This document shows, in pieces, positions 18,101 through 53,100 of a DNA stretch of 64,000 nucleotides. The DNA lies in contig NC_087077.1 in the NCBI RefSeq assembly GCF_026151205.1, positions 620,001-684,000 of the forward strand. The letters are read 5' to 3'. The notes under the pieces were generated by a model, which saw only the letters and a list, made by a program, of their open reading frames with translations, searched no databases and had not been told where the DNA came from. How positions within the stretch are numbered: the stretch's first letter is position 1; every line of letters begins with the position of its first letter. A program made the position numbers and the translations under genes. Source of the stretch: Bolinopsis microptera. Its lineage: Eukaryota; Ctenophora; Tentaculata; Lobata; Bolinopsidae.

Positions 18101-21100
18101 CATCACATGGCCCAATCAGTGACGTATCATTTGGGATGTGATCCATATTCTAACAATCCTAACAGCCGGACAACGGAGAACCTGAGTAGGGTTCACAAAG
18201 AAAGCTCAAACCTTTGACAAACCTACGATCACATACTGACATACTAACCATGAAAACTTTAGCTTCAAAATATAAACTTTTGGGAAAACCTGTATATATG
18301 CAGTATTTGCTGATTTTAATTATAATATAATCAAGTTTATTTTTCTAGTGTAGTAAGTTGTCATCCAGCCACACAATAAGCAACTTATATTGCAGTTTTA
18401 TCAATTAGTTTATCAAAATATGTCATTGTAATTTTGCATGGCTGAAATGTAACGCTTGATAAATATATAATAATTAATTGAATTTTCAAATAAAAAATTA
18501 ACTTACTCTGCCCTAATGTTAATGAAGCATAATAATGATTAAAATAAATCCCGGTTGATAATCTGATAAGGCACCGAAGTACTAGCACCGAAGTAATAGC
18601 AAACGCTCGCTACTTGCTTTTTCTTTTTATGGCAAAAATTTGAAAAGTTCCTCGAAATTTGAGGTCAGATATCAAAAGTTAAATTTATCATGACGACCTC
18701 GCCTATTCTTAAACTCATTAGTGAAAGCAAAAAATCGTATCTATAAAGTCCGCCCTTTTTTCTTCCTAGTAGATGTGTTAAAAATGACTTCAGATACAAC
18801 AGCACTTTTACTTCTTATTCGTCACTAAACCTACTTTAAACGCGTATCAATTAAAGTTCTCCATTACAAAGTTCTCCCACATATCATACCCCGGATAAAT
18901 TGTTCTGAGAACTGTTATCCATGTTGCTGAGCAAAACACTTCTTGATGTACTCCTCTGACGTATAGTCCGTGTATAGTGTATAGTGTATAGTCCGTGTAT
19001 AGTGTATAGTGTGATACAACAAGCCATCTTATCTACTCAACAGCACTTGTAATATGAGTAGAGATAAGGAAGAGCTAATTACCTTAATTACTAATTAGCA
19101 ATAACATTCTAGAGTGTGTGAAAAGTATATCCGCCACTAATCGGAAGTACTGCGGAGGAGTACTGAATGTTATTTGGCTCGCCTTTTAGTTTAAAAGCTT
19201 CTATATCACATGAAAAAAGCGTTAAGTCGCGCTCACTTTACTTTTATACCGTTACGGGATGTAAGAAACCAAAAAAGTAAAACAGTTCTATTTACAAAAT
19301 CACAAGAAGTAAAAAAACAAACAATGTGCCAACCAACCGACCAATCCTTGGTGTTCATAGTAAGACTGATAATTCAGGGTCATTATAAAATGCGGTTAAC
19401 GCTTGAGAAAAAGGTAGGCAATACTTAACACTTTAGATAAACTGAGTCCTATTGGACAAAAATATCATGACCTTATAATAGGTCAATAATGGAGCAGCGC
19501 AAGGCATCAAATATCAGTAATTACACATACAACAACTCGGGAATATTAACTAATTAGTTGACGATACGTCTCACTTAACTGATATCTAGTTTAAGGGCAC
19601 GTGACGTCATTAGGGCACGTGACGTCATTATCACCTTAAAATAAAATTACTGCTTGACCTGCACACAAATAACGGCACTCTTATATCAAGAATTACTGAT
19701 ACACTCAAATACTTTATAATTACAAAATCAAACTATTAAAACAGTAGGGTCCTAGATTTAATTGCATCCAATTAACTGATCGAAAAGGAGTCACACTTGC
19801 ACTTCTGACATATCTTCTTTTTCTAGATCGGAGTAAAGGAAGTTGAAAATTCTCGCGGAGTCGCTCGAGTCTAAAAGAATCAATCTACCGGCAAATAAAA
19901 AGCTTGACTAAAACATATGTACTTTTAAACCACGAAATTTGTCTCAAAGCTAAAAACACAATAATTTGTCACGTGATACATATTCAGGAACTTTGCCGGA
20001 AATTCATAGTCGGTTAATTAATTATGGGATTATTTTGGTAGTAAGATGTGTCCTGCACGTACGGTTCATACTATTTTCCATAGAACCAATAGCAATATAA
20101 TGAATAGCGAGTCGTGCTTATCAAACAGTTGTTGAATCCATCCTCTCAAACGTAGCTGTAGGGATCCTGAATCTACTAAGATTCTCCACAGTAGTCTCAG
20201 TTGGATGTTGTGCTGCGTACTTTTCTGCGTACATTATAGCATTATCACCATTATTGGGTGCGGTAGGGTGGATGGCTTGGGTGGGCATTGTGGCGCTGTG
20301 ATACTGCTTTGGCACATTGACGTTGTGGTCGTATTTGGACATATCTGCGTGGCGGTTATCTTTAGACATATCTGCGTGGTGGTAATCTTTGGACATATCT
20401 GCGTGGCGGTAATCTTTGGACATATCTGCATGGCGGTAATCTTTGGACATATCTGCGTGGTGGTAATCTTTGGACATATCTGCGTGGTGGTTATCTTTAG
20501 ACATATCTGCGTGGTGGTAATCTTTGGACATATCTGCGTGGTGGTAATCTTTGGACATATCTGCGTGGTGGTAATCTTTAGATATATCAGGATATTGGCT
20601 ATCTTTGGACATATGGGGATGATGGCCACGTATGAACACATCAGGGTTATGGACATCCCTGGCTAGATCGGGGTTTTTTCCATTTTTGACAGTTATATCG
20701 GGTACATCAGCAGAGTGACTATATTTGGGCATACTGGTGGTTTTGTTCTGCACATCAGGGACCCTCTTGAAGCTGTTTGTCTGCACAGATACAGGTTTGT
20801 CGGGTTTTTTCGATTGGTACGTTAAGGCTCGCGGAGGCTTACCGCACTTCCAGCAGATACTCCAACAGAAGCATAGAGAGCAGATCAGGAAAATTACAAG
20901 GAATACAATTATGACTTCATCAACGAGCTCTGCCCCTCCAACCGTTATAGACATCCTGAACTGAAATCAATTGAAACTTATTATTAGATATCTGAAAAGT
21001 TATTACAATCTTTGTTGTCTATGTAAATCGTGCTCGATGTAAATCTGTTCTCGATGTAAACTGTAAAATTATACAAGCAGAAACTGTTGATAAATACTCT

Positions 21101-27100: not shown

Positions 27101-30100
27101 ATTCCACTAGGCACTAATTAATAGCATATTGTTATTATTATATTGTTAGTAAATTTACTATTTTGCACAGATCCGTGTCAGGTTGCATAAACGATAAAAA
27201 TAATCAATAAACATACGGTGACACGATTTTTAAATTCAATATGGAATTAACTGGGCGGCGCTCAGCCTGTCACTCCGCTATAGATCTGCATGCTTAATCT
27301 TATAAACAGCAAAGACTGGGGACCCAGGTTATATTGAATATAATAAAATAAGTCATCACGGATCGGGAAATTGAGCGGTTATCCACAAAAGAAAAGCGGC
27401 CGCATTTCTTGTTAATGTTGTAATTAGTTGAAAATACCTCATATTATACAATACGTGGTAGAGATGATTAATAAGTAATTGTACTGTCAAGAATATCAAA
27501 AGATATTTGGGTACCTGAAAAAGTGGCGTCTGATGATATTGATAAAACACAGTACGGACATAACACTTGTGATTCCAGTAAAAAATACCGGTTAAGCAGG
27601 TAAGATTCCGGAAAATGTCGAATCAGAAGTCAATTATTGTGATACCCTCTCTTCATTCAGTTAGGGGTCATCTACTTAGGGCGTCCGGCAAATAGAGAAG
27701 GGGGTGGTTTTGGAATTTCGGACAAATTCGGACAGGGGAGGGGGTGGTTTTGAAAATTCGGACACACCCGGACAGGGGGATGGTCTGAAAATCTGCGATT
27801 TTGGTGGACGCCCTAAGTAGATGGCCCCTTATCTGCGTTCTAGTTATTATTCTATTATTACTTTGCTTGATCGTTGGTCAATTTTATTTATCTCAATTAT
27901 TCTTTGCTCATGTTGGTCAATTTCTTTATAATTAAAGCAATCGGCTCAAGCAGAAATGTCGAATCATAAAGGCGAGAATTTCACAAGAAAGAATGTTTTG
28001 ACATTGGATAAACACCTGGTCATAGAAAATCCTGTTACAAATATTAAAGAGTTCAAGGAGTCTGAAATATACTCTGATTCACGAGATATAACAGGTATAG
28101 CACTCATTTCTCAATTTTTACTATAATATGTTTTGAATTGTAACCAAAATTTCAGTAAGGTAAAGGGTAATATTGTATCATAAGGTAATCATGGTAATAA
28201 ATGTATTGTTTTTCAGAACCGAAGCCAAGCAAACAGCAATGTATAATCATAACTTTGTTTGCCTTCTTGGGCAATGTCATGGTGGTGACAGCAAGAATTT
28301 TTCCAGCAGGATTTTTCATCAACTTTTTGCTGGACTTAAATCTCAACAAACCGATCGGTACGTAACATATTTTACTGTTTAATGCACATACTGAAGACAG
28401 GATAGATGGTTAGAATATCTTCATAATTAAAAAAGCGCGATTGATGACAGAGGAATGATTATGCGGCTTATTTACTGAATCAAGAAATCCCCAGGCACAG
28501 TCTGCATATCTGTTACCTTGGTGACGTCAGCTGCAAGCCCGTACTTGTACCAGCATTTACCAGTCTACATCAGATCAAAACCTCTTATACACAGATATCT
28601 GGTACTTTTCCTCCTCAACCTGATCTGTTTGGCTTTGCTGAGTGTTGTTGATGCTGCGGTACAATGGGATCCTGAAGGATGGTGTGTATTTGGCATCATC
28701 TTCCTAGTGAGAGCTCTTCAGGGTCTAGTGGTTGGGGCGCTCTTTACTGCTGTGCAAGTGAGATCATAACTTCTGATTAATTACATAATTTAACAAATTG
28801 TTTCCTCAATGTTTCCTCTAATACAAACCATGACTCACATTCTAACCATAACAATACTTAAATGTCCCGGGCCTTAAATGTCCCAAGCCTCAAAAAATAG
28901 TGAGGAATACGGCAACAGGGGCAAAAATTTCTGGGGTACAAATATTGGACAACACGACACAGCTGACAGCCAAAGTCTGATCTTTCGTACATTTCAGGGA
29001 GAAATAATAGACCTCTACCTGAAAGACAACAAGTCGCTGATGGTTCTGATAACGAACGCGATCCAGGTTGCGTCAATAACATTCAACATAGTTGGAACAG
29101 AGCTCTTTCTGGCAGGGGGCTGGCTTCTCTGCGGATTGGTATTAGGAGCTATCAACATCCTACCCATTATGCTCCTTCCTGCTATCCACCGGATACACAA
29201 CACGCTCTTTAAACTGTCCCACCAACATTCAGAGACAGGAAGAGCTAACGAGATTTCAAAACAAACTTCATCGTCCATTGTAATATCACGCAAACGGAAA
29301 GTGGCCCTTTTTTTACTTGATTTAAATTTGTTTCTAAATAATTTCTTGTATTACGTCATGGCATATGTTCTCCCATCACGAGTTGTTGAATTTAACAGCC
29401 AAGATCTTGGACGAGCCGTTCTGGTTTATAATACCGTAAACCTTACTTCGCTTATCGGAGCTCTCCTATACAGTTTTATAGCCGAAGCAGTCGTTAGCAT
29501 TTTTAACCTCATGCTATTTGCCAATATTTCGTTTTGCGTAGGCTGCTTCTTAGCAATTGCTTCGACCACAGATTCGTTCCAGATACTTGAATACCCGTAC
29601 CAAATCATCCTTGGAACGGCCTTGATGGGATTTGGTGATGCAGGTCATATCAATCTAACAGTTTTGAGTAAATTTGTTCTGTACAAGAAATGGAACCTAA
29701 AGAACAGCGGACTCGGGGAAAGCTCAACGACTAGGTACAACGTTGCCAGTTGTATGTCGTCAGCCTTCGGAGCCTCAATTGCGTGGGTTGCTCTATCTCG
29801 AGGCAGTGAGGTGTACATGTTGGGAGTGATCACTTCAATTGGGGTGGCAGTGACAATAGGACTGTTGATTTGTAAGAACGTTAGGTAATGAACACTGAGC
29901 AGAATCAAATCTCATCTTGCTCTATATTTTAATGAGGATTCCATTAGAACAGTGTATGCCAAATTTCAACTTTTAACAATTAAAAGCTATGACTTTCCAA
30001 ATTTTACATTTTATTGGGGACGAATTGAATTGAAATTACGATCGATATGCAAAAGTTTTGTTTGAATTGTTAATAGGAATTAGTGTTAAAATGATTGACG

Positions 30101-39350: not shown

Positions 39351-39695
39351 CATTCCAATAATGTTTATGGGATATTACTGAAATCAAAGGAACTGAGACT
39401 GAGTCAGCACGATGTTTCTTCAGGGTCCCTGAAAATTGTTGTTCACACATCCATCTGAAACTTTTAGTTGGACGATAACATCGTTTACTTTGCCACACTT
39501 ATAGAAAGCTCCTATTAATTAGTTGAGCACTTTGCTGAAAAGAGAAACAAACTGTGTCTATGGATATATATATATATTTATAACTAGAAACCCGCTAGTC
39601 GAAAGCCTTGTTCGAGGAAATTGTTAAAAATTAGTTACGTTTTAATTTCTCATCATAATTGATAATCTATAAAAATATAAATCTGTACTGTAGAA

Positions 39696-39870
39696 ATTAT
39701 ATACGCTAATCTAACTGCGTATAATGCGATTACACTATTAATTGCACGAGGCGCAGCCGAGTGAAAATTGATGCAATAATTGCACAAGGCGAATAATTGC
39801 AGTTATTTCACGAGGCGCAGTCAAGTGCAATAACTGGTGTAATCGTATTATAGCTTATTATATAGCGTAT
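39696..39870. mobile_element. MITE family A, copy 1
   Basis: A 150-175 bp sequence with inverted ends. ATAATGCGATTACAC near the left is mirrored by GTGTAATCGTATTAT near the right, and the middle has repeated TTGCACGAGGCGCAG/TTTCACGAGGCGCAG words. A second, diverged copy in the same orientation is at 46338-46522. Confidence 0.75.
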
Positions 39871-40293
39871 TAACCAAAATGCTCATTTTCGGCATATCCG
39901 TCATGCTAAATCTGGACAAAATGACCTGGCGTGCTTAGCTTTGGGCAGCTTTTGTCCTTATGGGCCATTGTTAGCCCCAAGCGTTTTGGTCCGTCATTCC
40001 TGCCACTCAGCATTGCCTACTGTAAAGTAGAAATTTTTCTGAGACAATAGAGAAACTGACCTTGTCTCACTAAATTCAACCACTTTCTATAATAAAAATA
40101 CTAACAAATAAAGTTTTTTTAAAATAATTATATACAACCACTAAAGAATATTTCCTCAAGTTTACTTCTAGTTTTAACTAATTCGTGGTTTAAGCTCTTA
40201 TTTTATTTATGAAAGGAATGTAAAATAAAACTTATTGTTTCATTGAATGCTACAAATATGGAAATTCTAAATGACTGAAAGGTTATGATCTGT

Positions 40294-43200
40294 TTAATCG
40301 TTTTGAATATAACCAGCTGGAGGATTATTTACTAAATCGTTTATATCCACATGTTCCCACAAATCTTGTTTGTTGAAGTCTTCATAGTCCGCAAACATAT
40401 CACTTGGTGAACACTGCGACTGTTTGTGCGAATAAGGCAGAGGAGAACCGTGTCGCATAATAACCACTGTAGGAAGCATGTACGATCCAGATATCCTGAA
40501 AATGTCATTAAAAAGGAGCAAGATTTTCTGTTTTGTTATCTCCAACACTGGGACTGCTGTTAAACTGTTGCTGTACATGGATCCACGGTTATGTTGGGAA
40601 TTTACAAGTGTGCCTTCTTTGACAAAAGTTTCCACGTCCCTCAATACAATAATCAAAGAGCAATAAACCCTCGCTCTCGAAGCAGTAATGTACATTCTCG
40701 TCAGCTGCTGATCATACCACTCTGCCAATAAATCCTCCATTGAGAACTCTGTGTTATTTCGATTACAACAATTTGGTAAAGTCCATTCCAATATTCCTAT
40801 CACTGCCGGCCATTCAGCAGAGAATGTGTTCTCGTATTGTATTATGTCGATGGGGTTTTTCGGGCCCGAATAGCTCGTCGATTTCGCCTCTGCAAGAAAC
40901 TCATTAACTGTATCTTTGCACAATTCCTCCCAGTCGATGATATCTGATTGATAAAAGTTTAGACTCCTTTGAATGTGTTGAAATTTGTTTGTATAATAAG
41001 TATCCTGGGTCTCGAAACCTTTATCTGATGCGAGTAATCTATCGTCATTTACTATGATTGCGACTTTGGTGTTTTTTAGCTTTTCGAGTTCTTTAAGAAT
41101 TTGCTGTTTGGCATGCATCCTTGTCGACTTTGTGTTGAGCGTGAAACTTTTTAGCAATAACAACATGCCTTTTGGGCCATGGATGAAATGGCCTGGTTGC
41201 TGATCAATAAATTTTACACCTCTATCAAATGATTTCGATCTCATCTTTCTTATTTCTGCTAGAAATTGTGCTATTTCATAGCAGTTTCTTAGGTTATCAG
41301 AGAGTTGTTTGATGACATCGGGGCTCAACCTGCTTATCAATTCTTCAACTTTTTTGTGCTTTTTTGTATAGTCATTTATATACCCACGTTGTAAAGTGTC
41401 ATTTGCTATCCAAAACGTTCTTTTTGATCGTGATTTCGACTCAAACTCCGCCAAAACCTGATCGTATACACGATCAGCCTTACCTCCAACTCCGGTGGTC
41501 AAACCGTGGAAGTCATCAATGAATATATCATAATCAGAACGAAGCAGAGTCGTTAAACTGGAGCACCTATCTTTCTCGTTAACCTCAACGATTGGAAGGA
41601 TTTCCAAGTCTTCTTCTTTCACCGTCACCTGGTTTACAAAATATTTGATCAAAATCCTTCCTTGCAATTTTAACGACTTGTATTTCTCGTCTCCCCACAG
41701 AGTTGCTTTTAGGCCCGACTGTGCAAAAACTTTAGAGTATTTTTTTGCCAGAGTCTTGTTGAGAACAATAATAGCAACGTTTTTGTCTGTGGACTTGACT
41801 ATTTCCATAACTTTAGCCATGATAAGAATTGTTTTTCCAGTCCCTGCCGGGCCCCTTAAACAAAGTTTATTTTGTTTGCTCTCGAAAACATCAAGCTGAC
41901 TTGCTGTTAGACATTTGATTTTTAAATGTTTCGTGAAAATTGGTGGGGCATTCTTTACCAAGGGTGATCGGTTTCCTCTTTTCAGACTGCTTGTTATTTC
42001 CGAAGTTCTTAGAAGATCGTCAACTCGTTCAATGTTTTTACCGAGATCGCAAGTCTTTGTGACATTGGATTCGTTGCTATTGTCCATGCACCATAAACCG
42101 AGGAGCAACCATTTCATCTTGTTTTCGGTCTTTTTTCTTAGTGTGGTCTCTTGAAACAAGCAACTCAAAAGAACGCCTTCATTTTCAAGGTCATCTTTGA
42201 ACAGAATACAAGACTTCTCTTGAAAGGACAAAGAACGATAACCAACAAGATTATTCTCCGCATATTTTCTATTGATGCTAGTGAAAACAGTAAATTGATT
42301 AATAGCTTGTGATTTAAAACCGTATTTTCTGCTGACGCTCATCAAAAGTTCGTTAACTTTTTCTCGCTGGACTTTTGACTTCATATAGTTTCGTCTGAAC
42401 TTTTTTTCCTTATCGCAGTCAGATGCTTTAACTTCTATGATCGATATAGATCTGTCATGAATCATTATAAAGTCAATCTCTCCTTCGTCGTCCATGTCTT
42501 TCTTATTGCAATCATGTCCGACAAACAAATTATACTGCTGATGCGTGAAGCGTACCCCGTGAAGAACAATACCATCTTCTCTAATTTCTTCAAGTGCTCT
42601 ATAAACTGTAACTTCAGCTTCGTATTCTCGCTGCTGTTTCTCAATTTGTTTTACCCAGTTAGGCTCATCCTCAATATTGTCCGGATACTTGTCAATAAAT
42701 TTACAAAGTGGTGCAGGAGGAAACATAATGGGGTGTCCGTTTTTCTCTTTACAGTGAAGTGACGAAATTGCGATCCCTACTTTGACGATCTGTTTAATTA
42801 AGCCTTCGTTAAAACGGACATCAACTTTTGCGTTGAATTCTGGCCGCTTTATTAGTTGAGTCCTTTCTTGTTCGTCTTTTGATGAATCGTCAGATAAATT
42901 TGCTGGAACTCCTTTTATCTCTAATGGCTTCTGTAGATCTTGAAATCGTTCTATGTTTTGACTAAGACCACTAGTTATTTTTGCATAAGTCTCCATGTTT
43001 TTGTTTGTGTTCCATAAACCAAGGAGAAACCATTTCATCTTGTTTTCTATCGTCATTCTTAAAGTGGGTTTGCCTAACAAGCGAAACAAAAGATCCTCTT
43101 GGTTTTCAAGGTCATCTTCAAAGAGGATAGAATGCTTTTCTTCGGGGGACAGTGAAACATACCCAACCAGGCTATCCTCCGCATAATTTTTTGTGATGTT

Positions 43201-43815
43201 CATAAAAACAGAGAATTGATGGATAGTAGGAGCTTCAATGAATTTAAATTTCCTGTTTATGCCTATCACAAACTTATAAACATTTTCTAAATTGTCTTTG
43301 GACGCTGCATAGTTTTTCATGAACATTTCATTACTCTCACCATTAGATGATATGACTTTTAAAACCAACACAAATTTGTCATGGATTATCAGAAAGTCGA
43401 TTCCTCCTCCGTCATTTTGACCGTTCAAAACACCATCATGTCCAACAAATAAATTATACTGCTGATGCGTGAATCTTAGCCCAAGAAGAGCGATAAAATT
43501 CTCCCTGAGCTTTTCCAGTGATTTGTACACTTTTGTTTCTCCTTCGTGTTCCAGCTGTTGTTTCACATTCTTATCTTGATAATACTCTGCAGCTGGAGGC
43601 AGCATGACGGGACATCCCTTTCTCTTGGAGTAACACGATGAAATTTCTTTACCGACTTTGACAATTCTCCTTATAAAGTCTTCAGGATCTTCTTCGTTTT
43701 CCGTTTCATTTAGGTTTGTACTTGTTATCTTTGGGACCATCATCCAATAAAGCAGGGCATTCCAGACAGTTACTATGAATTCCCATCCTATCCGGAAAAA
43801 GTAACGTAGGGACAT
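40294..43815 (-). CDS. Duplicated nuclease-like domain fused to SF1 (UvrD-like) helicase, intronless, 1,173 residues
   Basis: The start at 43815 gives MSLRYFFRIGWEFIVTVWNA, a hydrophobic N-terminus that may insert in a membrane. Two similar domains follow (about residues 50-275 and 350-605), sharing FTHQQYNLFVGHD, then GxIDFxxIHD, then FSVF/FTVF and NKMKW. The second has GEIDFIMIHDRSISIIEVKA (about 442-461), with the D...ExK pattern of PD-(D/E)xK nucleases such as NERD domains. The first has GIDFLIIHDKFVLVLKVIS, lacking the acidic residue, so it looks inactive. The C-terminal half is a helicase: Walker A GPAGTGKT (about 654-661), Walker B-like DIFIDDF (about 762), motif V-like NTFSAEWPAVIGI and motif VI-like MYITASRAR (about 1038). 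Known bacterial NERD-helicase proteins have the same order. A role in nucleic-acid defence or repair is only inference. The lack of introns contrasts with its neighbours. Confidence 0.8.
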   Translation of the reverse strand: MSLRYFFRIGWEFIVTVWNALLYWMMVPKITSTNLNETENEEDPEDFIRRIVKVGKEISSCYSKRKGCPVMLPPAAEYYQDKNVKQQLEHEGETKVYKSLEKLRENFIALLGLRFTHQQYNLFVGHDGVLNGQNDGGGIDFLIIHDKFVLVLKVISSNGESNEMFMKNYAASKDNLENVYKFVIGINRKFKFIEAPTIHQFSVFMNITKNYAEDSLVGYVSLSPEEKHSILFEDDLENQEDLLFRLLGKPTLRMTIENKMKWFLLGLWNTNKNMETYAKITSGLSQNIERFQDLQKPLEIKGVPANLSDDSSKDEQERTQLIKRPEFNAKVDVRFNEGLIKQIVKVGIAISSLHCKEKNGHPIMFPPAPLCKFIDKYPDNIEDEPNWVKQIEKQQREYEAEVTVYRALEEIREDGIVLHGVRFTHQQYNLFVGHDCNKKDMDDEGEIDFIMIHDRSISIIEVKASDCDKEKKFRRNYMKSKVQREKVNELLMSVSRKYGFKSQAINQFTVFTSINRKYAENNLVGYRSLSFQEKSCILFKDDLENEGVLLSCLFQETTLRKKTENKMKWLLLGLWCMDNSNESNVTKTCDLGKNIERVDDLLRTSEITSSLKRGNRSPLVKNAPPIFTKHLKIKCLTASQLDVFESKQNKLCLRGPAGTGKTILIMAKVMEIVKSTDKNVAIIVLNKTLAKKYSKVFAQSGLKATLWGDEKYKSLKLQGRILIKYFVNQVTVKEEDLEILPIVEVNEKDRCSSLTTLLRSDYDIFIDDFHGLTTGVGGKADRVYDQVLAEFESKSRSKRTFWIANDTLQRGYINDYTKKHKKVEELISRLSPDVIKQLSDNLRNCYEIAQFLAEIRKMRSKSFDRGVKFIDQQPGHFIHGPKGMLLLLKSFTLNTKSTRMHAKQQILKELEKLKNTKVAIIVNDDRLLASDKGFETQDTYYTNKFQHIQRSLNFYQSDIIDWEELCKDTVNEFLAEAKSTSYSGPKNPIDIIQYENTFSAEWPAVIGILEWTLPNCCNRNNTEFSMEDLLAEWYDQQLTRMYITASRARVYCSLIIVLRDVETFVKEGTLVNSQHNRGSMYSNSLTAVPVLEITKQKILLLFNDIFRISGSYMLPTVVIMRHGSPLPYSHKQSQCSPSDMFADYEDFNKQDLWEHVDINDLVNNPPAGYIQND

Positions 43816-45174
43816 TATTCAGAGCTCTTCCATCCAGTATCATCATGAACACTGGAATTCGGAAAATGCCATCACACCTGTATGGAATATGGATCATCAT
43901 TAAATCTTTGTTTTAAACTGTTTCTTTATTTCTTAGATCCGCGCCGTTAAATAGGTTGCTGATCAATACATTTTAAACTTGTGTGAGGTAGTGTGAAAAC
44001 TTCAAAATAAAGGTGTTTACGACGAAACAAAAAAAAGAATTCAATTTCATTCTCTAAATTTAATTCAATTATAAATTTCAAACATTAAATCGAGATTAGA
44101 GTACAATAATAAACAAGAATTTCGCCGCGGTTAAACCACGCACGATCAATTTTCCCTACCATGTACCATTAATTCGTTTTAGTGAAAAGTGTGACTGGAA
44201 AAAAAGTGCACCATATTTACATACTATGTTTTTTATAAATAAGTGGGATTCGTGCATAAATTGACGATTTATTTGACCAATGCAGCGCCGCGCATCAACA
44301 ATAAATGAATCCAGAAAATTGCGGAAAATAACTTTGCGAAGGAGGAATTTCACTGCAATTGATTAACACATGGCTAGCGTCGCGCGCGGCATAACAGATG
44401 CTTCCTATACACTTAATTATATATAGGGGAGTGGTCTATATTGCGAAGGAGCAGACTTTTGTCGTCATCGCAGGTCCATCGAGCCACTTCATATATCCAA
44501 ACTCGATTACTTATTCCCTACGATCTTTTTGCCTTCGGCAAGAGTAGGGAAAAAAATCTAAGTAGTAAACATCTTTACCGGCTAACCAGCACATAAAGAT
44601 TTATCTGTCCAGCCTAAAACTAAAAACACAGAAAGAGGTTAATGTGGACCACATCTTCAAAGCAGCCATTATTTTTCCGCCCTGTAGCTCTTGAATTATT
44701 AATACAGCAGATGAAAATGAAATACCCTTTTTAATTTATTAGGCTTTTAGTTTTCAGTAAGTTTACACCACTTGTACGAAAGCTGTCCCCTTAAAGTTCG
44801 AAATATACAACTGAAAATTAGTCATTCTCAACTTTTCACATGGTGTGCATGTGATTTGCATGCCAATCGCTAACAGAATCAGATTCACTAGAAATGAAAT
44901 CCTGATTGTTCATAAGAAAACGAGGCTTTTATTCTGTAGTTTCGCCATTTTCTTCGTTGAAATTATATGCGTAGAAAAAATCCTTCAATGGAACGCGTTC
45001 TATTTTTATCAGGTTTTCTTGTCCCGGGTCGTCTTCATCGCCCACAATCCAATAAACGGATCCATCTGCATTGTGCATAGTCAGAAAATGCAGGACGGAC
45101 ATTCCAAACCATACTCAAAATTTTGCTTGCCTAATTTACAATAAATGAAATGATGACAAATATTTAGAGGACAG
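43816..45174. other. Flank upstream of the nuclease-helicase gene
   Basis: No convincing exon was seen. Part may be the promoter or 5' leader of the minus-strand gene at 43815. The 44845-45144 plus-strand frame of 99 codons has no recognisable domain or exon borders and is left out. Confidence 0.4.
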
Positions 45175-45302: not shown

Positions 45303-46231
45303 AAGTTATGCAGGGAGATACACTGGCGCCCTACCTCTTCGTGATTGTCATTGACTATGTGATGACAACAGCACTTAGAGGTAAAGATCTGGGCTTCACT
45401 GTCAACCCCAGAAGAAGCAGGAGATACCCAGCAGTTAAGATGACAGATGTCGACTTTGCTGACGATCTTGCACTGACAACAGACACCGCAGAGCAAGCGC
45501 AAGATCTTCTCCTCAGTGCGGAGCTGGCTGCTAACTCCGTTGGACTTCACCTCAACGAGAGTAAGACGAAGTACATCAGAGTCAATCTCTCTGAGTCTGA
45601 CTCTACCGTCATTAAAGCAGCAAGTGGGCAGGAGATAGAGCAAGTAGATGACTTTGTCTACCTTGGAAGCAGAATAATGAGTGCGGAGAAGGACTTTGAT
45701 GTTAGGAAAGCAAAGGCATGGGGGGCCTGTCATCAGTTAAAGACAACCTGGAAGTCTGGAATGCGCAGGGACTTAAAGATCCGTGTCTTTCGAGCAACGG
45801 TTGAGCCTGTACTCCTGTACGGCTCTGAAGCTTGGACGATAAGCCAATCCATGACTAAGCGGATCAATGGATGCTACACTAGAATGCTCCGGATGGCCTT
45901 GAACATACGTTGGCCACAAATCATCAACAACAGTGATTTATACGGCAACATCCCCAAGCCATCAGCGATGATAGCCTCCAGAAGAATGAGACTGGCTGGA
46001 CATGTAGCCAGGCATGACGACCTTCTGGCAAACCAACTTCTGTTCTGGGACCCTCAGCATGGATACAGGAGACCGGGGAGGCCCCACCTTACGTTTCTGG
46101 ACATGCTAAAGAAGGACACCAGCCTTTCCTGTGTTGAAGAGATAAGATCTGTTATGCTTGACCGCGACGTGTGGCGAGGAATTGTAGTTGTTGCTCGACC
46201 AAGAAGCCGACTTAAGTCAGTAAGTCAGTAG
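45303..46231 (+). pseudogene. 5'-truncated LINE reverse transcriptase
   Basis: The open frame starts at the conserved QGDTLAPYLF block, has the polymerase active-site motif DFADDLAL, then DFVYLGS, the post-core region VEPVLLYGSEAWTIS and RMRLAGHVARHDD, and ends with GRPHLTFLDMLKKD. This is the standard order for the C-terminal half of a non-LTR reverse transcriptase. The endonuclease, N-terminal polymerase and ORF1 are missing. The remaining frame of about 307 codons is unbroken, so it is a fairly young 5'-truncated insertion. Confidence 0.9.
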
Positions 46232-46337
46232 TAAGTGAGAAAGTTGCAAAATGTTAAATCTCAAGTTAGGTTATAAGCTGTGAAAAGTAACTTTTTAGAA
46301 CGTCCTCCATAATAACCCCAGGTCCCCCCTGTGTAAT

Positions 46338-46522
46338 AATATACGCTAATCTAACTGCGTATAATGCGATTACACTATTAATTGCACCGAGGCCGGCAGC
46401 CGAGTGAAATTGATGCAATAATCGCCCGAGGCCGATGCGAGTTCGATTATTGCAGTTATTTTCCACGAGGCGCGCCAAGTGCAATAACTGGTGTAATCGT
46501 ATTATACATGCAGTTAGATAAC
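46338..46522. mobile_element. MITE family A, copy 2
   Basis: The left end AATCTAACTGCGTATAATGC and the right end (reverse complement TTATCTAACTGCATGTATAA) form inverted termini of about 30 bp. The interior matches copy 1 at 39696-39870 with small indels. Confidence 0.8.
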
Positions 46523-50173: not shown

Positions 50174-53100
50174 ATGCCGAGCATCGACTCAGCATTGTTT
50201 AATCTCTTGGGATCTTCTTCTACCCTCGATAACCACACTCCTTCACGCCTCCTAACTGAACGGTGAGTCAAATGCCATGCAATTTAAATTAGTTAGTAAT
50301 TTGTGGGAGCAAACACCATGCTAAATGATAGCGAGGTATGCTTGATTAGAAATATGCTGTACTATATATCTTCCGATTTGATGTTGCAGCCTTGCCGGGC
50401 TCCTTGGTACCAGACATTTATTATATCATGTATGAACGAACGGTCGTTCACTGTGTCAACAAATTATCTACACCAATAAGTTGCATGTTTGTTTAACCTT
50501 TCCTAAAACGAATCGTTATGATCAGCTTACACTACCACATTTCAATTGTTTGCCACTGGCACGTGATCTACGTTTGTGTGGTGGAGTGTGCACTTAACCA
50601 ATTGTTTTGTCAGTATCGAGTTTGTTGCCCCAACGAAGAAGGACAGTTACATGGAACAACTCCGACTCAAATACAAACCAATCAACGGAATAGATAAATC
50701 CTCCGTTATCCCTCAGACTAAGTATGGATGATTTGTTAATTGTGTACAGGAAATTTTCTTTTTATGATAAATAAGGATTTAAAGAGCTGCTGTGTAAAAC
50801 TAGACCTTGGTTTCTTAGAGTACAGTGTTTCTTACATTGTTCGTACATTGTTCATTGTATAATGTATATTGTATATGCCAAAAGTGTTCACAATTTCTGG
50901 TTCTAACAACACTTTATAATTTAATCTCCGCTCCCTTGTGTTTATCTACTAAACTAACAAACCACACCCAGGAGTCTACAGAATGAGCTCTATAACAAAG
51001 ACAGAGTAGAGTTGAGGTGGAGACAGAAGCGGAGTGTGGGTTGCGGGCTGGTTAATCCTGCTAACACTTGTTATCTCAACTCAACATTACAGTGTCTTCT
51101 CTACACTCCTCCTCTTATTAACTATCTACTTACTGATCACAAGAAACATTGTGAGTACCTGGAATAAATCTCTTTCTGCTGGAATTTACTAGAATGTTCC
51201 TGATAGAATTTGTTTGCTAGAATTTTCCTCATCTGCAAGAGAGTGCACTTGATTGTTATTTTACTATTTACTGTTCACCACCATAGCTGGAAATCATCAG
51301 CGTTATTTAAAAAATTCAACCTCATCCTTTATTCGTCCATTAACGGATCTGTTACAAATGTAAAACGTTACATAAACTTAAATATAATTGAAAGGTCGCT
51401 CGGGGGGATTCTGCGTTAGCTGCAGTTTACTACAACTCTACAACACAGTGAATAATTCTAGTGGAGGAGCTTGTCGTCCTTCCTCCTTTATACACCACCT
51501 TAAAAGTAAGTTCACACTTGCCCTTATATTTATGTTGGACATTTTCCTGGCAGATTTTTATCGTAGTCAGAAATTTATACTTTCTGTGTTTGGATACAAC
51601 GTGGAATACTAGATACTAGAAAGTGACCATTAATTTTAATAATGTAATGTATGCCTTTTTTGTGTTTTGATTTTCTGGTAATCGAGTTAGGATATAGGTT
51701 TATTTATTTATTTATTCATATTAATTTATTATATAAAATAGAGATTCTGGATTTTTACTGTAATTAGTTCTGTTTATTAAAAATCTATTTCTTTCAGTGA
51801 TAGCAAAACACTTCTGTTTTGGTCGACAAGAAGACGCGCACGAGTTTTTAATACACCTCCGAGATAAAATGATACAACATTTCCTAAATTCCCATCCCAA
51901 GTACGTTATACATAATAAATCTCATGATACTACCCACAACTCATTTCACAGAGTCAAAATAAAACTCATCATATATAGAAATATCTTATATTACCATAAG
52001 ATAACAGATGTAGAATCTCATGAGATAACAGATGTACAATCTCATGAGATAACAGATGTACAATCTCATGAGATAACAGATGTAGAATCTCATGAGATAA
52101 CAGATGTACAATCTCATGAGATAACAGATGTACAATCTCATGAGATAACAGATGTACAATCTCATGAGATAACAGATGTACAATCTCATGAGATAACAGA
52201 TGTACAATCTCATGAGATAACAGATGTACAATCTCATGAGATAACAGATGTACAATCTCATGAGATAACAGATGTACAATCTCATGAGATAACAGATGTA
52301 CAATTTCAGGGTAGATAACACCAGAAAAGACACCACACCAACACACGCGGTGTTTGGTGGTAAGCTCGTCTCCACAGTAACCTGCACCCAGTGTAACCAT
52401 CAGAGCAACACTAACGAGTGTTTTCTCGAGCTGGGACTTGATGTTCGGGTAAGTTGTTTGGTTGTTTGTAGCTTATTTTACTTGTTAGGAGGAGAATTTA
52501 ACTTGTTCAATTATTGGTTGTGAGGAGTATTGGTGTGTATTTAGTGTGTGTTGGACCCCCCCCCCCCCCCCCCCCCCAGCTACACATTTGGCCCTTCGAT
52601 CATAATTTATTCATGTTTATAATTGTCTATCCTGGAATAAAACATTAAACACAATGTCTATCATTGTAAATATGGTCTGTCATTTCAGCACAGTGAATCG
52701 ATTCAGCAGTCCTTCAACAAGCTTTGCAAAAGAGAGACCTTAAGTGGAGCTAACTCTTACAAATGTGAAAAGTAAGGGGACAAAATTACTTTTTAACCTA
52801 TTTTTGAGAAGATATTTGTTATTGTTTTGCTGACTCGTTGAATCTAAATTTAACCGTTTTAGTAAAATATGAGGTATTAAGTTGTATAAATAGTGATTAT
52901 ATTACCGTGCTTACTGCAGTGTTGTATTGATAAGGGAGTTAACGTTACACTGCCAAAATATCTTAAAAATTACTAATTAATGACAGAAAAGTGAACGCCT
53001 TTCTCCCTTGAGAATTACCTGACAGGCTTGTTTGTATTGTACCTCCACCTCAATTAAATTTTATAATTTGAATGATCAGTGTTAGATAATATACATGAGT

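Follow-up and report, generated by a model that had tools for sequence, protein, structure and literature searches.

A window of 64,000 nucleotides (nt) from the ctenophore Bolinopsis microptera (RefSeq assembly GCF_026151205.1, contig NC_087077.1, positions 620,001 to 684,000; all coordinates below are those of the window) carries on its minus strand an open reading frame (ORF) of 1173 residues at 40294..43815. Its predicted product is, as judged from the sequence, a very divergent eukaryotic helicase of the NERD-superfamily 1 (SF1) type, in which the nuclease-linker module is doubled and one copy appears to be pseudo-active. The chain runs from a first NERD-linker copy through a second to an SF1-type helicase. 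This assignment is made because a profile of bacterial NERD-helicases aligns with the protein continuously, from the NERD domain across the linker to helicase motif Ia, and homology to NERD-SF1 helicases is accordingly regarded as highly probable. Among the sequences compared here (bacteria, phages, plasmids and viral contigs; no eukaryotes), the NERD-SF1 architecture is otherwise bacterial; bacterial phyla beyond Pseudomonadota are represented only through plasmids and phages.

The bacterial profile was built from 20 NERD-SF1 helicases. Fourteen came from 20 fetched genome regions, each of which had to contain a P-loop ORF 450 codons or longer, a filter that L047, L060, L062, L064, L065 and L066 failed. 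The remaining six members of the profile were L002, L003, L005, L006, L009 and L014. Rows removed beforehand were L004 and L016, which are the same helicase without NERD, and L010, L011, L013 and L017, which are refetches of L005, L006, L057 and L003. The profile matches residues 396-704 in a single alignment at 45.6 bits (its E-values being those of a one-sequence search), with a second match at residues 801-924 (3.7 bits) and -2.7 bits on copy 1. A profile of five bacterial sequences behaves similarly, with 42.8 bits over residues 396-694 and, for copy 1, 4.9 bits. Compared protein by protein, copy 2 scores best with L003 (15.4 bits) and the helicase with L004 (26.1 bits). The original prediction, made from the DNA letters alone, had proposed a NERD-type nuclease joined to an SF1 helicase and kinship with bacterial NERD-helicases, and both proposals agree with these matches. 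One NERD domain was found in each of the 20 comparators, by a model that also misses copy 1 and so would miss a divergent second copy. General collections add little: NCBIfam gave just two matches, far below cut-off, and PHROGs one PhoH-like P-loop match (E 4.8e-4) and four marginal ones. Solved structures searched by sequence gave nothing at E 1 with the whole protein and nothing at E 10 with copy 2; the helicase half had 47 matches at E up to 10, the best at 0.48.

The tandem duplication that had been noticed earlier is readily recovered. Copy 1 (residues 45-301, 42913..43683, minus strand) and copy 2 (residues 337-609, 41989..42807, minus strand) align at 46% amino acid identity with an E-value of 2e-74. 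At the DNA level they are 67% identical over 633 columns, and they lie in register with spacings of 921 and 924 nt. The repeated unit takes in the linker that joins NERD to the helicase in bacterial proteins. The ratio of nonsynonymous to synonymous substitution rates (dN/dS) between the copies is estimated at 0.26 (NG86), 0.37 (LWL85) or 0.32 (YN00). Thus, purifying selection has held the module on average, a value that averages both branches and says nothing of copy 1 alone today.

The two copies differ in their putative active sites. Copy 2 exceeds the curated Pfam cut-off for NERD (PF08378, 22.1 bits) both within the whole protein (33 bits) and alone (27.4 bits). It keeps every residue of the PD-(D/E)xK site: the helix glutamate E401, D448 in GEIDF (residues 445-449, 42469-42483), and E461 and K463 in IIEVKA (residues 459-464, 42424-42441); the D...ExK part of this had been predicted. 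In copy 1 the corresponding stretches read GGIDF (residues 137-141, 43393-43407) and VLKVIS (residues 151-156, 43348-43365). Here K153 and I155 stand in place of the glutamate and lysine, giving K-x-I for ExK. The claim that copy 1 had lost its acidic pair is therefore correct for the ExK glutamate, which has gone together with the lysine, but not for the aspartate, since D140 is present, as is the helix glutamate E93. All 20 bacterial NERD-helicases in the alignment carry the site aspartate and both the E and the K of E-x-K; the helix position, read by eye next to the printed column, is also E in all 20.

The helicase half occupies about residues 620-1110 (40486..41958, minus strand). When it is aligned to 21 bacterial helicases, its SF1 motifs follow one another in order: motif I (GPAGTGKT, residues 655-662, 41830-41853), Ia (41737-41766), II (41503-41526), III (41389-41412), IV (41272-41304), V (40798-40830) and VI (MYITASRAR, residues 1041-1049, 40669-40695). 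The Walker A sequence and motif VI named in the original prediction are both in place. The sole helicase model above its Pfam cut-off is ResIII (28.5 against 22.5 bits), which spans motifs I to II, and an AAA model passes by 0.3 bits when the helicase half is scanned alone. An SF2 or type III restriction helicase, to which the ResIII match might point, was considered and rejected, as the match stops close to motif II, beyond which motifs III-VI follow the SF1 NERD-helicases in the alignment. The open frame, the duplication, the homology, the site residues and the order of the motifs are read from the sequence itself.

Several results weigh against this reading of the protein. Motif II reads IDDFH, where aspartate replaces the catalytic glutamate that is invariant in a comparison of eight sequences. 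The histidine is ordinary and the Asp-for-Glu exchange is the departure, because the six bacterial rows read DExQ or DExH. Motif V is degenerate, with FSAEW against the bacterial KGLE. The Pfam UvrD-helicase model remains below its cut-off (15.2 against 23 bits), and the Schlafen group III helicase model PF09848 also falls short (15.7 against 24 bits). Copy 1 alone scores 14.4 bits with NERD, under the cut-off, yet it aligns in the right register and, by its sequence, is clearly homologous to the NERD module of copy 2. A bacterial N-terminal model of 20 sequences gives copy 2 only 10.9 bits and copy 1 no match. The PADLOC defence models yield no match to the whole protein at E 1, nor to a piece comprising copy 2 and the helicase at E 10. 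AlphaFold2 models were too poor to use, with a mean predicted local distance difference test (pLDDT) score of 30.0 for the helicase (single sequence) and 45.3 for copy 2 (two sequences). Foldseek run with the poor copy 2 model returned 349 matches at E up to 10, in which many PD-(D/E)xK nucleases are mixed with unrelated proteins; the best stands at 6.1e-3, and none reaches 0.001.

A weakened motor is possible, given the aspartate in place of the catalytic glutamate of motif II and the degenerate motif V. Taken further, these changes and the loss of ExK from copy 1 would suit a non-catalytic regulator, in which motor and nuclease have both turned into sensors or scaffolds. However, copy 2 retains the E, D, E and K of its site, and the helicase half keeps motif I, the aspartate and glutamine of motif III and the arginines of motifs IV and VI, so that a wholly non-catalytic protein seems quite unlikely.

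A catalytic mechanism can be outlined for the divergent NERD-SF1 helicase. The whole nuclease-plus-linker module would have been duplicated within the gene. The SF1 motor would bind ATP, move along DNA (or RNA) and present this to copy 2, which would cut it through its metal-dependent PD-(D/E)xK site. Copy 1, under selection and without ExK, would be a pseudo-nuclease whose part is to bind the substrate, to pair with copy 2 or to hold copy 2 in check. The sequence features leave this scheme, with a motor feeding the copy 2 nuclease beside a pseudo-nuclease copy 1, about evenly poised between holding and failing. That the protein is catalytic, how the copies share the work, what the substrate is and whether foreign nucleic acid is the target of surveillance or defence are all presumed.

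The same nuclease-helicase chemistry could be directed at the cell's own nucleic acid in DNA repair, recombination or RNA processing. Such a housekeeping role is a genuine minority possibility: the sequence holds no pointer to a defence substrate, and NERD domains are common in bacteria, being found at E 0.001 in 106 of 249 Pseudomonadota genomes, with most matches not shown to be defence genes. Counted against it is the company of the closest bacterial comparators, since the five that were run all match PADLOC defence models, the best match being RTasNERD-Hel for L003, L014 and L061 and NERD+UvrD for L002 and L057. This agrees with the earlier statement that bacterial NERD-helicases occur in defence contexts. 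Duplicated domains of which one has a decayed active site are also more typical of fast-evolving conflict genes. The helicase half of the ctenophore protein, when searched alone, matches the PADLOC models Nhi (E 6.2e-6), AbiO (7.4e-6), GajB (5.8e-4) and NERD+UvrD (C3a187, 7.3e-4). The Nhi and AbiO matches cover motif I, and the C3a187 match spans 51 residues, short of most of the model length.

A defence role for the protein is tentative and, on balance, rather unlikely. More doubtful still is the specific proposal of an animal innate-immunity enzyme derived from bacterial NERD-helicase defence proteins, in which one chain would hold a live NERD copy together with its dead duplicate, the latter serving it as a subunit for recognition or locking. 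If it were true, a nuclease-helicase of bacterial-defence type would join the animal repertoire. The pair of nuclease copies, one intact and one disabled, both maintained by selection in one gene, would also give a compact natural case in which to study directly what a pseudo-nuclease does.

The ORF is very probably an intact, real gene. It is open throughout at the location first proposed, 40294-43815 on the minus strand, whereas no stop-free run exceeded 168 codons when the window was shuffled 20 times by mononucleotides. A TGA lies two codons 5′ of the ATG, and an AATAAA signal (40202..40207, minus strand) begins 87 nt past the stop codon. Codon use was compared with nine long ORFs of the window taken by eye as host exons, and the codon score favours the annotated frame in eight of nine rows (the whole gene and eight segments). 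At residues 761-900 the annotated frame barely leads (0.092 against 0.091), and residues 1-44 are the sole tested segment in which it does not score best. Therefore, the start codon and the N-terminus (residues 1-28, 43732..43815, minus strand) are the least certain part of the model. The hydrophobic N-terminus reported earlier is only weakly so: the highest Kyte-Doolittle mean over 19 residues there, near residues 9-27, reaches 1.34, below the 1.52 of a segment within copy 1. The description of the gene as intronless holds for the uninterrupted ORF and goes no further, as an intron in the 5′ untranslated region or a spliced alternative start may exist. Its contrast with intron-rich neighbours stands in part. 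FLII-like and USP36-like matches are split over separate ORFs; however, the ORF at 28878-29888 (336 residues) is also open, so the gene is not alone in the window in having a long open frame.

The original prediction further suggested that the gene was transferred or retro-copied. The uninterrupted ORF, an architecture otherwise bacterial among the sequences compared, and a reverse-transcriptase fragment 1.5 kb away would fit a gene acquired recently from bacteria or retro-copied from a spliced parent. A retro-copy has no support and, in searches of phages, plasmids, viral contigs and whole genomes of Pseudomonadota, a recent transfer has little; this origin is considered very improbable. Along its full length the protein matches nothing in phages or plasmids at E 0.01, and a phage or plasmid gene was rejected for that reason. 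Viral contigs, searched for close relatives only, contain no relative of it and no match to two bacterial NERD-helicases either. Pseudomonadota genomes match at E 0.01 or below in four of 299 cases (E 0.0013-0.0098), and two of these four places (L013 and L014) are NERD-helicases. Searched as separate pieces against plasmids, the helicase reaches just E 0.007 (a Geobacillus helicase) and copy 2 just E 0.02 (a Selenomonas NERD protein); weak plasmid and phage matches of this kind (E up to 10) served mainly to find bacterial comparators. When plasmid records were searched singly, two of three matched, the best at 6.7e-8 over residues 636-699. For a retro-copy, there is no poly(A) tract, the longest A-run in the 700 nt downstream being 7 beside the ordinary AATAAA, though target-site duplications were not searched for. 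The GC content at third codon positions of the gene is 0.39, against 0.45 in the nine ORFs used as the codon reference, which also speaks against this origin.

The neighbouring genes, as far as their sequences allow, fit an animal genome. On the minus strand, gelsolin and leucine-rich repeat matches lie far apart in separate ORFs and probably belong to one FLII-type gene. On the plus strand, a USP36-like gene is spread over several ORFs. Near its exons, the ORF at 51797-52318 carries USP-like sequence (by eye) followed by a short tandem repeat, ITDVQSHE, in one frame. Another ORF, at 20121-20954 (277 residues), consists in part of a tandem repeat of about eight residues of the HHADMSKD type (by eye), and that at 28878-29888 resembles the Major Facilitator model weakly, at a score under the cut-off (E 0.0025). 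A partial reverse transcriptase (RVT_1, E 3.2e-8) at 45305-46228 is apparently a 5′-truncated element lacking long terminal repeats, its class being presumed. An imperfectly palindromic repeat of about 160-170 bp, resembling a miniature inverted-repeat transposable element, occurs at 39695-39852 and 46335-46506 in the same orientation (86% identical). Its copies flank the gene and the reverse-transcriptase fragment on either side, and it is probably unrelated to the gene; viral contigs gave no match to the longest exact core of the repeat. Upstream of the ATG, 25 nt at 43954-43978 share 92% identity (blastn E 0.001) with 41195-41219, in the part of the gene that codes for the helicase. The idea of a second gene copy leaving a remnant upstream was dropped, as the protein, searched by tblastn against all other parts of the window, had a single match, elsewhere and at E 9.5.

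In the literature searched, which lacked most subscription papers, no paper on an animal NERD-helicase was recognisable by title or abstract start. Some invertebrate database entries are presumably named NERD domain-containing; if so, the gene would be a member of an existing, little-studied animal group. Schlafen group III proteins also combine an SF1-type helicase with an N-terminal nuclease-related part in animals. However, Schlafen identity was rejected on the PF09848 score given above and because the Pfam matches of the protein include no Schlafen core domain; its nuclease is NERD.

Bacterial defence systems offer further parallels. Nhi is described as a nuclease-helicase activated by phage single-stranded DNA-binding protein (PMC10732053). 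The NERD domain is assigned to Mokosh type I and to Nhi-like systems (PMC10952713), named as the backup nuclease in PglW of type 2 BREX (PMC12839542) and reported in the TALON system (PMC12458937). The helicase half resembles the anti-phage proteins Nhi and AbiO weakly around motif I. Unlike them, the ctenophore protein carries a tandem NERD; the likeness is confined to a short stretch, and the whole protein goes unmatched. The closest counterparts are bacterial NERD-UvrD-type helicases (PADLOC C3a187 and RTasNERD-Hel; L003 from a Selenomonas plasmid, L005 from Vibrio, and L057), which likewise place NERD, linker and SF1 helicase in one chain and can be aligned with the ctenophore protein over two stretches, one running from NERD to motif Ia and the other lying around motifs III-IV. 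It differs from them in its two NERD domains, one of which is without ExK, in the DD that replaces DE in motif II, and in its very low identity to any of them.

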